A stretch of 39,577 nucleotides of DNA from IMG/VR virus record IMGVR_UViG_3300046512_000372, positions 1 to 39,577 of that record. One strand, 5' to 3'. The DNA is from a virus. Positions 4,127 through 14,833 of the stretch are shown here, piece after piece (positions within the stretch are counted from its first letter, which is position 1; every line of letters begins with the position of its first letter). The notes beneath the pieces are model-generated. The model did no database searches. It was not told the DNA's origin and saw only the letters and a list, made by a program, of their open reading frames with translations. Made by a program: the position numbers and the translations under genes.

Positions 4127-4549
4127 TCAGGCCGCCTTGCCGATGACCGGCACGTCGGGGTTGGCGACGTCCAGCGCGCGGCGCAGGGCGTGGACGCCCC
4201 GGCCTTCGAGGAAGGCCCAGCCGAGGAAGCGCGATTGCTCGCCGTCGTCGATGGCGAACAGCGACACGCCCTGGCGGGGTTCGGCCTCGCCGAAGACGTG
4301 GATTTCGGCGTCGAAGGCCTGCAGGCCGCCGCCCTTGCGGTCGCGGTGGATGGTGGCCACGAGGTCGGCGAGGCTGGCCAGCAGCACCGGCTTGTCGTTC
4401 GGGTCGGTGGGCTTACGGGCGAGGGCGAAGCGGGCGATGATTGGCATGCGGGGTCTCCGAAAGTTGGCGAGGGCGTGGGCCACGAAATCGCCGTGGCGGG
4501 CGCGGTCCTGGGCGCTGGGCGCCCAGGGGTTGGGGGCGGTGCGCGGCAT
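4127..4549 (-). CDS. Early phage protein downstream of the ParB-like gene, unknown
   Basis: A 140-aa protein. The ATG overlaps the stop of the ParB-like gene (ATGA), implying translational coupling. The middle part (PIIARFALARKPTDPNDKPV to DAEIHVFGEAEPRQGVSLFA) reads as alternating beta strands, followed by WAFLEGRGVHALRRALDVAN, probably a small alpha/beta fold. There are no catalytic motifs I can name and no transmembrane segment. An internal Met (PRMPII, residue 35) is a possible alternative start, but the overlap favours the upstream one. It may act with the ParB-like protein because the two are coupled; that is inference. Confidence 0.65.
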   Translation of the reverse strand: MPRTAPNPWAPSAQDRARHGDFVAHALANFRRPRMPIIARFALARKPTDPNDKPVLLASLADLVATIHRDRKGGGLQAFDAEIHVFGEAEPRQGVSLFAIDDGEQSRFLGWAFLEGRGVHALRRALDVANPDVPVIGKAA

Positions 4550-6303
4550 CAGGGCTCGTCGTCCTCCGCCTCGTCGGCGTCGTCTTCGTCCTCGTCTTCG
4601 AGGCCTTCGCCGTCGTCCAAGTCGTCGGGCATCGCCTCGACTTGGTCATCGGCGGGCACCGCGAGGTCGGGGCCGGTGAAGAGCGGCGCGCCGAGGGCGT
4701 AGTTGAGGGCGATGGCCTGGACGCGACGCAGGGCTTCGAAGCCGGGGCCTGGCGCCCAGGCCATCAGCCGGCCCTCGCCATCGTGCAGCACGAGGTTGTC
4801 GCGGTCCTGGGCGACCGTGAACGGACCCTTGAAGCCGAAGGGTTCGAGGATCGTCGACAGCTCGGCGCGGAAGTCGAAGACCAGGCTGTCAGCTAGTGCG
4901 ACGTTGGCCCGGAATTCGAAGTTCCGGACTGCCGCCAGGAAGGCCTGGCCCTCGGCAGCGGCGGCTTCGCGCTTGGCCTGGCCGTCGGCGGCCTCGCGTT
5001 CCCTCAGCTCGCGCCGGGCGGCCGCTTGGGCTTCATCGACCGCATCCTGAGCCGCCTTGGCGTCGGCGAACGCCTGACCTTCCGGCGTCAGCTCGAACGG
5101 ACCATTGAGCCACGGGGTGAGATAGCGGCCTTCGGTGTCGGCCTGCTCGGCGAGGTCCGCGCCGACTGCGGCGGCGCGCAAGGCCAGCAGCGCCGAGGCG
5201 TGGGTCGCTGGCTTCATGAGGTCGGGCAGCAGCGCGGTCAGTTGTGCCCAAGCCTCGTGCGAGCCCAGCTTCACGTGGTGGTGGAAGTCCCAGGCGGTCG
5301 GCTTCTTGATCTCCAGCAGGCCGCGCTTGATCAGCTCGCCCGCCAGCGCGTCCTCTTCGGCCGCCGAGCCGCACTCGCGCGACTGCCACCAGCTGATGGG
5401 CAGCCCGCCCTCCCCTTGCGAGCCGATCCAGGCGACGACCTCGCCCAACATCAGGGCCTCCGCAGCCGTCAGCTCCAGGGGCTTCGGACGCGCCGCGATG
5501 CGCTTCAGCGCCTCGTGCACGGTCAGCTGGCCCTGCTCCATCTGGCGCTTCTCGGTGTCGGTCAGCTTGAGCAAGCGCAGGCGTTGCTGGACAAATTCGC
5601 GCGACTTGCGCTTGGCCTTCTCGGCCATCTGGGCGGTGTTCCAGCCCTCGCGCTTCATCAGCTGGGCGAAGGCCTCGGCCTCTTCGAGCGGGGTCAGGTC
5701 CTCGCGCTGCAGGTTCTCCAGCAGGGCCGCGACCATGTGCTCGCTGTCGTCCAAGCTCTCGACCTTGACGAGGATCGGGAAGTCGCGGTCGAGGTCGCCG
5801 CGCTTGATGGCCAGGCCGACCGCGCGCCAGCGGCGCTCGCCCGCGACCAGCTGGTGGACGGGCAGGCCATCGGCGTTGGGTTCGGCGTCGGGGTCGCGGA
5901 CCTCAAGATTGGTCTTCAGGCCGCGCTCGACGATGTCGGCCGACAGCTCATCCAGGCGGACCTCGTCGAAGGCTTTGCGCGGGTTGAAGTCACCGACGCG
6001 TATTTGACGGTGGAACAGGTAGGCGTAGCCCTCGGGCGGACGAACGGCGTTCGCATCGACCGCCGCCTGGGTCACGCCGTTGGCGCGGTCGAGGGCTTCG
6101 AGCGCCGCCAGCCCGGCCGGGGTCATGGCAACCGGGTTGCGGGTGATCAGCCCGTCCTTCTCCAGCGAGGTCAGGTCGCGCGTCATGTTGCCGGGCAGGC
6201 GCGCCGCCTTTCGCGCGAGGTCGCTGTTGTCGGTGAACCCGCCGGCCTGGATGGCGCGCAGCAGGGGTTCGGCGGAGACGGCAAGCGGAGTCAGGGCGTT
6301 CAT
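4549..6303 (-). CDS. ParB/Spo0J-family DNA-binding protein with extra N-terminal winged helix
   Basis: A 584-aa protein; start MNALTPL chosen for an upstream AGGA. Residues 11-75 look like a winged helix (TDNSDLARKAARLPGNMTRDLTSLEKDGLITRNPVAMTPAGLAAL). Residues 100-210 are a ParB N-terminal domain: NPRK (107-110), the CTP-binding-type GERRWRA (155-161) and ENLQREDLTPLEEA (196-209). A central helix-turn-helix follows (219-245). The long C-terminal half is unassigned and ends in a very acidic tail of ~30 residues. Canonical ParB is ~300 aa and works with ParA on parS sites; no ParA is seen here. Family members bind DNA, spread as CTP-gated clamps, or act as nucleases or transcription factors. 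One copy of the dispersed 15-bp palindrome lies in the linker between the winged helix and the ParB domain (residues 84-88). Confidence 0.85.
   Translation of the reverse strand: MNALTPLAVSAEPLLRAIQAGGFTDNSDLARKAARLPGNMTRDLTSLEKDGLITRNPVAMTPAGLAALEALDRANGVTQAAVDANAVRPPEGYAYLFHRQIRVGDFNPRKAFDEVRLDELSADIVERGLKTNLEVRDPDAEPNADGLPVHQLVAGERRWRAVGLAIKRGDLDRDFPILVKVESLDDSEHMVAALLENLQREDLTPLEEAEAFAQLMKREGWNTAQMAEKAKRKSREFVQQRLRLLKLTDTEKRQMEQGQLTVHEALKRIAARPKPLELTAAEALMLGEVVAWIGSQGEGGLPISWWQSRECGSAAEEDALAGELIKRGLLEIKKPTAWDFHHHVKLGSHEAWAQLTALLPDLMKPATHASALLALRAAAVGADLAEQADTEGRYLTPWLNGPFELTPEGQAFADAKAAQDAVDEAQAAARRELREREAADGQAKREAAAAEGQAFLAAVRNFEFRANVALADSLVFDFRAELSTILEPFGFKGPFTVAQDRDNLVLHDGEGRLMAWAPGPGFEALRRVQAIALNYALGAPLFTGPDLAVPADDQVEAMPDDLDDGEGLEDEDEDDADEAEDDEP
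6040..6054. repeat. 15-bp palindrome copy, one mismatch
   Basis: ACGAACGGCGTTCGC; arms GCGAACG/CGTTCGC with one change at the outer base. Lies in the ParB-like gene, in the linker after the winged helix, and is read as ANAVR. Confidence 0.8.
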
Positions 6304-6393
6304 CGACTCGGTATCCTGAATTTGGGGAGGGGTTGCGCCCGGCGGCCCCATGCCAGCCGGGCGCGGCCACCTGGGCCGGGGTAGTGGGTAGGG

Positions 6394-12227: not shown

Positions 12228-12622
12228 TGCGTCTGCATTTCGTTCCTGTTGCTGGCGACGTGATCAGCCGCAACGACGGTCAAACCCACTTCATCTCGGC
12301 CGGAAAGCTGGTGCAGCTGTACGGCATGCCTAGGGCTGTCCTGCCGCTGGGATGCCACCGCGCCAACCAGTTGCCGCGTTGGGGCGGCGACGAGGCCATG
12401 AACCGCGCCTTTGCGTGGCTGTCGCCCTGGAGCGTGCCGCTCACCCCCAGGTTCGACGGCGACTATTCGCTGATCAAGGCCGTCATGCGCTGGGCGCCGT
12501 TCGCCCTGACCGCGTTCAGGGAGCGGCTTGTGCGCGCCGAGGCGAAGCTGGCGAACAGCCTGCAGCATTGCGCCGACCTGGGCGCGCGCCTGGACGCCTT
12601 TGAGGGTCGCCGCCGGCCATGA
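12224..12622 (+). CDS. Early phage protein, unknown
   Basis: A 132-aa protein. GTG 12224 overlaps the previous stop (GTGA) and ATG 12227 follows directly, so either may serve. The N-terminal half is beta-like (RLHFVPVAGDVISRNDGQTH) with conserved-looking LPLGCHRANQLPRWGG; the C-terminus is a long helix (RERLVRAEAKLANSLQHCAD). I do not recognise the family. Its tail overlaps the methyltransferase start (ATGA). Confidence 0.6.
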   Translation: MMRLHFVPVAGDVISRNDGQTHFISAGKLVQLYGMPRAVLPLGCHRANQLPRWGGDEAMNRAFAWLSPWSVPLTPRFDGDYSLIKAVMRWAPFALTAFRERLVRAEAKLANSLQHCADLGARLDAFEGRRRP

Positions 12623-13314
12623 TCCCGACGAGTACCCCGAGTGCGACCTATGCGCAGCGTGCCCCGCGTGACGTGTACGACGACGACCCCGTCAAGGCGC
12701 TGTTCCGCCGACTGGAGTACTACCCGACGCCCCCTTGGGCGGCGCGGGCCATCGGTCATCGCCTGATCGAACTAGATCCCGCCGCGCATACCTGCTGGGA
12801 GCCGGCCTGTGGCGAGGGCCACATGGCGCACGGCCTGCGCGACGCCTTCACCAGCGTTTGGGCCAGCGACATTCATCCGCACGGCTATGGCGACGTCGTC
12901 GACTTCCTGGGTGGCGGCGCCATGCCTGGGCCGCACGATTGGATCGTCACCAATCCGCCCTTTGACGGCGAGTTCGGCACGGCGGAGGCCTTCGTTCGGG
13001 TGGCGTTGGAGCGCGCCCAGCGCGGCGTGGCCATGCTTTGCCGTTCGGCGTTTGAAGAGAGCATCGGCCGCCACGGTCTGTTCCACGGTTTGCGCCCGGC
13101 GACCATGAAAGTCGTCTTCGCCGAGCGTGTGCCGATGGTGCTGGGCGAGTACCGCCCGAAGGCCAGCACGGCGATGTCGTATTCGCTGTTCGTCTGGTGC
13201 CAACCGCCCCTGGCCGACCAGTTCCCCAACGCCCCCCTGTGGCGGTCCTTTCCGCCGGGTACACGGGCCAGATTCGAGCGTCCCGCCGACGTGACCTGGG
13301 CGAGGGCGGCATGA
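12619..13314 (+). CDS. DNA adenine methyltransferase-like protein
   Basis: A 231-aa class I SAM-dependent methyltransferase. YYPTPPWAARAI (34-45) precedes motif I EPACGEGHMA (61-70), an acidic strand end ASDIHPHG, and motif IV IVTNPPF (109-115), the NPPF form typical of N6-adenine or N4-cytosine enzymes. No restriction endonuclease lies beside it, so it is probably an orphan methylase. Phage copies may protect DNA from host restriction or alter methylation-dependent regulation; in Caulobacterales GANTC methylation drives the cell cycle, but the target here cannot be read from sequence. Coupled by ATGA overlaps to both neighbours, directly before the replication gene. Confidence 0.8.
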   Translation: MIPTSTPSATYAQRAPRDVYDDDPVKALFRRLEYYPTPPWAARAIGHRLIELDPAAHTCWEPACGEGHMAHGLRDAFTSVWASDIHPHGYGDVVDFLGGGAMPGPHDWIVTNPPFDGEFGTAEAFVRVALERAQRGVAMLCRSAFEESIGRHGLFHGLRPATMKVVFAERVPMVLGEYRPKASTAMSYSLFVWCQPPLADQFPNAPLWRSFPPGTRARFERPADVTWARAA

Positions 13315-14258
13315 GCAACAAGGCAATGACCTGGGCCTGGGAACAGTCCGACGTGCCCAGCGGCGCGAAGTTCGTGCTGGTGGCGCTGGGCGACCACGCC
13401 AGCGACCACGCGGGCGAGGATTGGGCCTGTTATCCGTCCGTCGAGCGGATCATGTCGTTCACCAATCAGAGCCGGTCGACCGTCGAGCGCGGGCTGGCGA
13501 TCCTGGTCGATATCGGCTGCATCAGCCGGGTTCGTCGCAAGCTGCCGGGCGGTCGCCTGGGCATCTATGACTACGTCCTGCACCGTGATCGAAAGCCGTC
13601 CGATCCTGTGGAGAAGTCGCCCGACCACACGTCAAATTGCAGCATGGTCCATGCGTCAAATTGCGGGTCCGCCATGCGTCAAATTGACGGCCAGCCACAC
13701 GTCAATTTGACGCATGAAGTAACCCCCATAGAACCCTCAGTAGAACCCTCACATTGCGCGGGCGCGAGCGAGGCTGCGCCGGATTGGGCGCAAGAGGTGT
13801 GGACGGTTTGGCCGGTTGATGGCCAGCGATCCTCGTCGCCCCGCATGCTCGCCCTGGCCATCGCCGCTGAGATCGCCGCTGGTGCTGACCCCGCCGCTCT
13901 GCTGGCCGCCGCGACCGCCTATGGCCAGGACAGGACGGCCTGGGGATCGTCAGGCCGTCCTGTCGCCGCGCATCGGTTCTTCGCCGAGGGTCGCTGGGAG
14001 AACTTCACCGCCGTAACGCCGGGTGGCCCCGGCGGGCTGTTCGAACAGGCGCGAACGGCGTTCGCCTGCGCCGAGGTCCGCGTCGCCGTGGTGGCCGCCA
14101 GAGGCCCGGCGTGGGCCGCTAGCTGGTTGGACCCCTGCGAGTGGGACGAGGCCAGGCGGGTGATTGATCCCCGATCCAAGACGCGCGGCGACCGCCTGCG
14201 CAGCGAGGTCGGCGGCGTGTTGAAAAGTTTGGGTGTGCGAGTGGAAGGGCAAGGCTGA
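13311..14258 (+). CDS. Replication initiator-like helix-turn-helix protein
   Basis: A 315-aa protein starting MSNKAMTWAWEQSDVPSGAK, ATGA-coupled to the methylase. The N-terminal ~100 residues form a winged helix of the HTH_36 type (YPSVERIMSFTNQSRSTVERGLAILVDIG), as in phage replication-organiser proteins. A linker (105-145) is encoded by an iteron array, and the C-terminal domain (from PDWAQEVWTVWP) may contact host helicase. The arrangement, initiator with origin repeats inside its own gene, copies lambda O/ori. A perfect 15-bp palindrome copy lies in the C-terminal part (14051-14065). Role inferred from domain and repeats. Confidence 0.7.
   Translation: MSNKAMTWAWEQSDVPSGAKFVLVALGDHASDHAGEDWACYPSVERIMSFTNQSRSTVERGLAILVDIGCISRVRRKLPGGRLGIYDYVLHRDRKPSDPVEKSPDHTSNCSMVHASNCGSAMRQIDGQPHVNLTHEVTPIEPSVEPSHCAGASEAAPDWAQEVWTVWPVDGQRSSSPRMLALAIAAEIAAGADPAALLAAATAYGQDRTAWGSSGRPVAAHRFFAEGRWENFTAVTPGGPGGLFEQARTAFACAEVRVAVVAARGPAWAASWLDPCEWDEARRVIDPRSKTRGDRLRSEVGGVLKSLGVRVEGQG
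13627..13716. repeat. Iteron array, candidate replication origin
   Basis: Four copies of GTCAAATTG: direct at 13631-13639, 13655-13663 and 13678-13686 (spacing 24 and 23 bases, about two helical turns), and inverted at 13703-13711. Copies 2, 3 and the inverted fourth share ATGCGTCAAATTG. Copies 3 and 4 are complete 11-bp palindromes, GTCAAWTTGAC. Confidence 0.65.
13729..13752. repeat. Tandem 12-bp repeat beside the iterons
   Basis: TAGAACCCTCAG at 13729-13740 is followed directly by TAGAACCCTCAC at 13741-13752 (11 of 12 identical). It is less GC-rich than its surroundings and may be the unwinding side of the origin. Confidence 0.5.
14051..14065. repeat. 15-bp palindrome copy, perfect
   Basis: GCGAACGGCGTTCGC, perfect. 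In the C-terminal part of the replication initiator gene, read in a different frame (ARTAFA). Confidence 0.85.
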
Positions 14259-14833
14259 TGGGCGCGATGTTGAAGGCGGAAGTGGTGGTGGCGAGCGCCC
14301 AGGAAGTGGCGGTCGAGACCGCGCCGGTGCGGCGCTGGCGAGTGGTGCAGGCCAAGTCTCACTGCGAGCGAGAGGCTAAGCGGAACCTGACGCAGCAGGG
14401 CTTCGAGGTCTATCTGCCGATGGCCTTGAGCGAGGACCCCGCCACGCCGCGCCGGCCCAAGCGCCGGATCATCCGGGCATTCCTCCCCGGCATCCTGTTC
14501 GTGCGGTTCGAGCCTGACCTCGACCAGTGGCGGTCGATCTGCTCCACGGTCGGCGTCCGGGCGGTGATGATGGTGGGCGACAAGCCTGTGTCGGTCCCTG
14601 ACCGCCAGGTGCAAACGATCGCTGATCGTGAGGAAGCGGGCCTCATCCGCATCGCCAGCCGGGCCTCGGTGAAGACCAGCTGGAAGCAAGGCCAGGCCCT
14701 ACGCCTGGTCGGCACGTCGTGCGACATCGATGTGGTGTTCGAGGAATTGCTTGACGAGAATCGGGCCGTGATATTCGTAGAGCTTCTGGGCCGCTGGTCC
14801 CGACAAGTCGTCACTCCGCTCCTCTTGAAGTGA
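14258..14833 (+). CDS. NusG/RfaH-like transcription antiterminator
   Basis: A 191-aa protein with the NusG architecture. The NGN domain spans about 25-125: RWRVVQAKSHCEREAKRNLTQ, FEVYLPM, RRIIRAFLPGILFVRF, DLDQWRSICSTVGVRAVMMV. A KOW-type C-terminal domain follows (WKQGQALRLV to ENRAVIFVELLG). Length is close to bacterial NusG, but divergence indicates a specialised paralogue like RfaH. Such proteins bind RNA polymerase and suppress pausing or termination. It is the last gene before the late operon, and a strong hairpin lies just downstream, so it plays the part of lambda Q by position. Start overlaps the initiator stop (TGATG). Confidence 0.85.
   Translation: MGAMLKAEVVVASAQEVAVETAPVRRWRVVQAKSHCEREAKRNLTQQGFEVYLPMALSEDPATPRRPKRRIIRAFLPGILFVRFEPDLDQWRSICSTVGVRAVMMVGDKPVSVPDRQVQTIADREEAGLIRIASRASVKTSWKQGQALRLVGTSCDIDVVFEELLDENRAVIFVELLGRWSRQVVTPLLLK

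Follow-up and report, generated by a model that had tools for sequence, protein, structure and literature searches.

Origins of replication that lie inside the gene of their own initiator are already known from phage lambda (gene O), from the RepA_N plasmids and from repC. In the RepA_N plasmids, most of which come from Firmicutes, the origin is placed inside the initiator gene and the C-terminal domain is described as variable and host-specific (PMC5703833). In repABC plasmids oriV is located within repC, and replication is lost through silent changes there (PMC3155836). The repeats in the DNA unwinding element are recognised by plasmid Rep proteins sequence-specifically and as one particular strand (PMC4081077), and lambda-type O proteins bind the single-stranded DNA (ssDNA) of their own AT-rich region (PMC7466680). 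Here we describe a metagenomic virus record of 39,577 bp (IMG/VR record IMGVR_UViG_3300046512_000372, analysed in full and called the window below), in which the gene of a predicted HTH_36-type replication initiator carries four iterons followed by an AACC-repeat element; together these cover positions 13626-13751 and likely form the replication origin.

The arrangement is like that of lambda O and ori-lambda. In both cases four dyad-symmetric iterons spaced by about 20-24 bp lie in the middle of the initiator gene (annotated at nt 349-433 of the lambda O gene, at about nt 316-406 in the window) and have next to them, on the same flank, a separate tract of lower G+C content, the melting tract in lambda and a putative one in the window. 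An earlier reading, made from the sequence alone, had described this as lambda O/ori logic in an alphaproteobacterial phage with an unrelated HTH_36-type initiator. The anatomy and the HTH_36-type initiator hold, but the layout is not special to an alphaproteobacterial phage, a host assignment that is only putative for this metagenomic virus. Unlike in lambda, the N-terminal domain is of the HTH_36 type and the window protein gives no match to Phage_rep_O (PF04492), whereas lambda O itself is matched with E 5.7e-36; BLASTP and profile comparison of the window initiator with Phage_rep_O proteins detected no homology. The following tract differs as well, with AACC repeats in the window and an A-rich sequence of the ACACAAAAGA type in lambda.

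The other systems share parts of this layout. Unlike the RepA_N initiators (pSK41 family), the window protein has no PF06970 match at E 0.05, and a constant AACC-like element is not described for RepA_N in the available text of the source (PMC5703833). The repABC plasmids also have their origin inside the initiator coding sequence, but repC is reported to be without iterons (PMC3155836). RK2 (TrfA, 13-mers of oriV) likewise combines iterons with short direct repeats in the opening region, at a period of 13 bp compared to 11-13 bp here; its initiator has another fold, whereas the AACC core is common to the HTH_36 family, whose iterons are unrelated. The layout as such is therefore known, and what we did not find described in the open-access literature is the family-wide constant AACC element. 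A search for prior reports of GAACC repeats or of HTH_36 origins, limited to this literature, found none.

The initiator gene and its two repeat elements

The gene at 13311-14258 (+ strand) was assigned using Pfam, PHROG and AlphaFold. The N-terminal domain of the 315-aa product matches HTH_36 (PF13730; E 3.6e-8, 33.5 bits, cut-off 25), which places it in this family by sequence, and the best PHROG matches are replication initiation proteins (phrog_270, E 1.4e-22; phrog_391, E 1.6e-13). PF13730 and phrog_270/391/1032 define the grouping of HTH_36-type phage initiators used here, and the protein is predicted to act as such an initiator. An AlphaFold model made with 17 homologues has two confidently folded domains, a winged helix (residues 1-91) and a helical C-terminal domain (158-306), joined by a linker (about 95-155) that is predicted to be disordered; the predicted local distance difference test score is about 90 in both domains and 40-50 in the linker. 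A profile search of PDB sequences with the initiator gave no significant match. In whole-model fold searches residues 1-101 matched winged helices only, and the C-terminal domain was not resolved, this domain not having been searched alone. The N-terminal model aligns with the RepA_N N-terminal domain 4pt7 (Z 8.7, root-mean-square deviation 2.8, 85 aligned residues), a score tied with many unrelated winged helices.

The iterons are built on the 9-mer GTCAAATTG, which is found exactly at 13631, 13655 and 13678 on the plus strand and at 13703-13711 on the minus strand, with plus-strand core spacings of 24, 23 and 23 bp. It forms the core of a 14-bp iteron with the consensus CATGCGTCAAATTG, present in three exact copies (13650-13663, 13673-13686 and, on the minus strand, 13703-13716) and in one variant. 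Iteron 1 is this variant, the half-dyad CACACGTCAAATTG at 13626-13639 (+), which is kept in the relatives L002 and L003 and as a variant in L007. Iteron 2 at 13650-13663 (+) is a half-dyad of the sequence CATGCGTCAAATTG, and iteron 3 at 13673-13688 (+) is CATGCGTCAAATTGAC, containing the 11-bp palindrome GTCAAATTGAC (13678-13688) as its dyad core; both are supported by the sequence and by the relatives. Iteron 4 at 13696-13716 is a 21-bp near-perfect dyad on both strands, CACACGTCAATTTGACGCATG, with a second 11-bp palindrome, GTCAATTTGAC, at 13701-13711. The copies and the spacing agree with the three direct and one inverted repeats, two of them palindromic, that the sequence-only reading had listed, and so does their position in the linker-coding part of the gene. 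There are no exact copies of GTCAAATTG elsewhere in the window and other matches with one mismatch are scattered; GC-rich words aside, its family is the only 9-mer family in the window with at least three copies inside 120 bp.

Just downstream of the iterons the AACC-repeat element covers 13720-13751 (+). It consists of a degenerate unit, TAACCCCCAT (13720-13729), and a 12-bp tandem repeat formed by AGAACCCTCA (13730-13739) and GTAGAACCCTCA (13740-13751), so that AACC occurs at 13721, 13732 and 13744. GAACCCTC is found nowhere else in the window. Like the iterons, the 12-bp repeats all fall within DNA coding for the linker that is predicted to be disordered. The G+C content of the 44-bp stretch at the AACC repeats is 55%, compared to 67% for the initiator gene. 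The tandem repeat and its lower GC had been noticed before and are real, but the label of a lower-GC repeat is too narrow, as the element is sequence-specific and has been retained even in very distant relatives.

Three metagenomic phages (L002, L003 and L007) encode initiators that are 55-62% identical to that of the window. Presence of the repeats in the initiator genes of related phages had been chosen beforehand as the check on the origin, and all three retain the four iterons and the AACC block in place. The array is thus beyond chance, as synonymous shuffles of such genes reach four copies in 9% of cases and these relatives keep the repeats. In nt 316-450 the mean DNA identity to the relatives is 0.75-0.78 and the protein identity 0.47-0.69, while the DNA identity downstream is 0.49-0.69. 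Moreover, in L002 the spacing of iterons 3 and 4 is off by one base, which brings the same DNA into another reading frame with the repeats retained. Because DNA identity exceeds protein identity and the frame can change, it is the DNA rather than the peptide that is conserved. A more distant relative, L008 (36% identical), has a different iteron word, CCACCCGCCAA, with two full dyads flanking two half-dyads at spacings of 22-36 bp, followed by AACCCTCA repeats; its protein weakly resembles RP-C, with a score that falls just short of the Pfam cut-off. Searching viral contigs for the exact AACC-block pattern returned two true relatives and one unrelated gene (L006). A genome scan with the single initiator protein gave no match, and a profile scan gave distant relatives only.

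Iterons and the AACC element across the HTH_36 family

For the family-wide comparison viral contigs, phage records, plasmids and genomes supplied 187 initiator genes, which were reduced to 95 with less than 60% identity; the set includes phages of Vibrio, Pseudomonas, Burkholderia, Acinetobacter, Halomonas, Arthrobacter and Pseudanabaena. The repeat score was the number of times that a 10-mer recurs within 150 bp when one mismatch is allowed. At least four copies of their own repeat were found in 69 of the 95 genes (72.6%); the corresponding share was 9.1% for synonymous shuffles and 8.6% for flanking segments. In the genes that pass, the array mostly starts at the same place (median nt 287), and copies on the same strand are most often 22, 23 or 24 bp apart (97 of 183 spacings). 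An origin inside the initiator gene is therefore well supported, from sequence comparison, as the rule for initiators of the HTH_36 type, and the embedded iteron origin proposed for the window gains support from the family as well as from the close relatives.

The iteron sequence itself is variable. Among 9591 gene pairs, those with at least 80% identity over the N-terminal 95 residues almost always have a repeated 8-mer in common and those below 40% hardly ever do, and pairs with similar N-termini but dissimilar C-termini share their iterons in 87% of cases. This suggests that the iteron sequence follows the N-terminal winged helix and not the C-terminal domain, a covariation that we read as a trend without a P-value, because many loci are related and the pairs are not independent. 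As a separate observation, the iterons of the HTH_36 phage gene L014:1501-2508 (CCATCCCTCAAATCGAGGG) look very like those of lambda (ATCCCTCAAAACGAGGGA) despite different initiator families.

In contrast to the iterons, the element behind them is constant. In phages of Proteobacteria, Actinobacteria and a cyanobacterium (G)AACC repeats occur every 11-13 bp just past the iterons. When the genes are aligned on the end of the array, the density of AACC is 42.9 per kb in the first 30-bp bin and 30.3 per kb in the second, compared to about 4 in most other bins, and that of GGTT is 1.5 and 0.5 per kb in these two; the enrichment in the 60 bp past the array is about tenfold and confined to one strand. 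Distances from one AACC to the next are mainly 11-13 bp, and the consensus is approximately AGAACC, two variable bases and CA. These 60 bp have a mean G+C content of 51%, compared to 60% for the gene, and are lower in 61 of 66 genes. The element is also detected when the array is not used: a pair of AACC words 10-14 bp apart lies in nt 241-600 of 67 of the 95 genes, compared to 2 of 52 later in the same genes, 5 of 186 flanking segments and 0 of 95 for GGTT. Synonymous shuffles retain such a pair in 25.5%, a conservative null given that the DNA has also shaped the peptide. After thinning to less than 40% N-terminal identity the pair is still present in 17 of 24 genes.

To which part of the protein the element belongs can be seen in genes with exchanged domains. 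L020 combines an HTH_36 N-terminus with a C-terminus homologous to that of lambda O and has AACC repeats, whereas lambda, epsilon34, As1 and phiEt88, with N-termini of the O type, have iterons followed by a ACAAAAGA-rich tract of the ACACAAAAGA type and lack the AACC element. The element therefore tracks the N-terminal module rather than the C-terminal domain. L029 and L049, which have a DnaT-type C-terminus, carry AACC words at the same place. The N-terminal module contains the conserved segment S-x-x-A-x-x-W-A, with Trp8 in 87 of 95 proteins.

Lambda O relatives in the viral contigs were all near-identical to lambda, so divergent O genes were drawn from phage records; L325 and L326 were left out of the count as they gave no clear array with the starts used. 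The lambda-type O genes L053, L322, L323 and L324 differ in their iterons but all keep a tract of the ACACAAAAGA type behind them, which may be a constant element proper to genes of this kind. In the O gene of Escherichia phage vB_EcoM-689R6 (L327:1294-2235) TCAAAATCTG repeats, mostly at 15-bp spacing, are followed by GATCCGTCAG in two copies, which may represent a variant form of the AACC element.

Origin reading and its alternatives

Taken together, we consider it likely that 13626-13751 is a replication origin inside the initiator gene, in which the iterons are bound, the AACC element is opened and the C-terminal domain recruits the helicase. The N-terminal winged helix would bind the four iterons, which are two helical turns apart, probably as dimers on the dyad copies, as the covariation of iterons and N-terminal domain indirectly suggests for the binding; initiator and iterons could form a wrapped complex like the lambda O-some. 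Opening would start downstream in the AACC-repeat element, a putative melting or strand-loading element of which one strand may be held sequence-specifically, and the C-terminal domain would then recruit the replicative helicase or its loader. The linker is predicted to be disordered and is little constrained as a protein, which leaves the underlying DNA available as an origin. Two DNA codes thus appear to share the gene: iterons that differ between phages and co-evolve with the winged helix, and a (G)AACC repeat that is constant and belongs to the N-terminal module.

Several points weigh against this interpretation. By the repeat statistic 26 of the 95 genes fall below four copies, a crude measure by which these genes are not shown to be without iterons, and 28 of the 95 lack the AACC pair, so that neither element is shown to be universal. 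For a melting element AACC is not especially A+T-rich. We observe the two elements, their conservation, position and strand bias, and the domain they travel with; initiator binding, melting and helicase recruitment are what we infer for the HTH_36 family. GC skew, which had been suggested as a marker, gave no origin signal across the window and did not locate the origin, as it follows gene direction: the cumulative maximum spans about 9-15 kb along the divergent transcription, and its sign, if anything, is that of a terminus. Finally, no helicase or P-like loader was recognised among the window proteins scanned. In lambda-like phages the helicase loader gene is placed right after the initiator, whereas in the window this adjacent gene (14258-14833) is NusG-like.

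A more far-reaching proposal, offered tentatively and with somewhat less than even confidence, is that HTH_36 initiators of different phyla share one sequence-specific opening code, the strand-specific (G)AACC at 11-13 bp, which the conserved N-terminal segment would read as ssDNA once the iterons have placed the protein. Origins would then be modular, each with a private address in its iterons and a universal opening tag, the latter depending on the fold of the initiator (AACC with HTH_36, the ACAAAAGA tract with lambda O).

Alternatively, the iterons could mark the origin while AACC is read by a conserved host factor, such as a primase or helicase loader, or acts in RNA. Iterons and C-terminal domains change but AACC does not, as expected for an unvarying partner, and the reading frames of AACC vary (29/21/17 for the first AACC), which excludes protein coding. 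However, AACC goes with the N-terminal module of the initiator: enterobacterial lambda-type phages have another tract, whereas HTH_36 phages of related hosts have AACC. We also know of no host factor of this specificity common to Proteobacteria, Actinobacteria and a cyanobacterium, and regard this explanation as unlikely.

It is far less probable that the repeats are autoregulatory operators, or a centromere-like site for the 600-aa ParB-like protein encoded in the leftward early region of the window (4549-6351, minus strand). Initiators often repress their own genes, but the arrays lie mid-gene and not at promoters, they co-occur with the AACC element, and their sequence follows the initiator's own N-terminal domain. 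That the linker needs EPS- or SNC-like peptide motifs which the DNA repeats merely follow was rejected as scarcely credible: the length of the 12-bp unit is divisible by three and its translation in the window reads EPSV EPS, but the iteron spacings put the copies into different frames (TSNC, ASNC, RQI, VNL), AACC occurs family-wide in all three frames with spacings evenly distributed modulo three, synonymous shuffles destroy both signals, and the linker is predicted to be disordered.

Related replicons, neighbouring features and implications

Three small plasmid records have an HTH_36/DnaT-type initiator with replication protein P next to it, and these are the only replication genes that can be recognised in them: L052 (8,461 bp, E. 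coli), L328 (8,600 bp, K. pneumoniae) and L329 (15,643 bp, E. coli), in the last of which the initiator is unannotated. They appear to be prophage fragments kept by the HTH_36 initiator and P, and resemble lambda-dv plasmids; being assemblies, one of them recorded as linear, they serve as supporting evidence only. YdaU of the Rac prophage, reached via a plasmid match, was rejected as an HTH_36 relative because it is annotated as DUF1376. The ydaU gene of E. coli K-12 (L048:5120-5977) contains four AACAGATGTT-like repeats, a candidate place for the Rac origin oriJ.

In the window the initiator gene is directly preceded by a gene for a DNA methyltransferase-like protein (12619-13314). The NusG-like antiterminator gene overlaps the initiator stop codon and is followed by an HNH endonuclease gene. 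At 13929-13964, in the part coding for the C-terminal domain, there is a perfect inverted repeat of 14 bp around an 8-nt loop (GACAGGACGGCCTG / CAGGCCGTCCTGTC), which was not seen in the aligned close relatives.

Iterons followed by AACC inside an HTH_36 gene provide a sequence rule by which a probable origin can be marked in many temperate phages with poor annotation. Two questions that are usually merged, how the initiator is addressed to its origin and which sequence is opened, can now be separated. If the initiator indeed reads AACC, this would be a phage counterpart, recognised from conservation alone, of the sequence-specific recognition of unwinding elements by DnaA at oriC and TrfA at RK2. 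An exchange of one domain along with the linker DNA that belongs to it could then change replication specificity.
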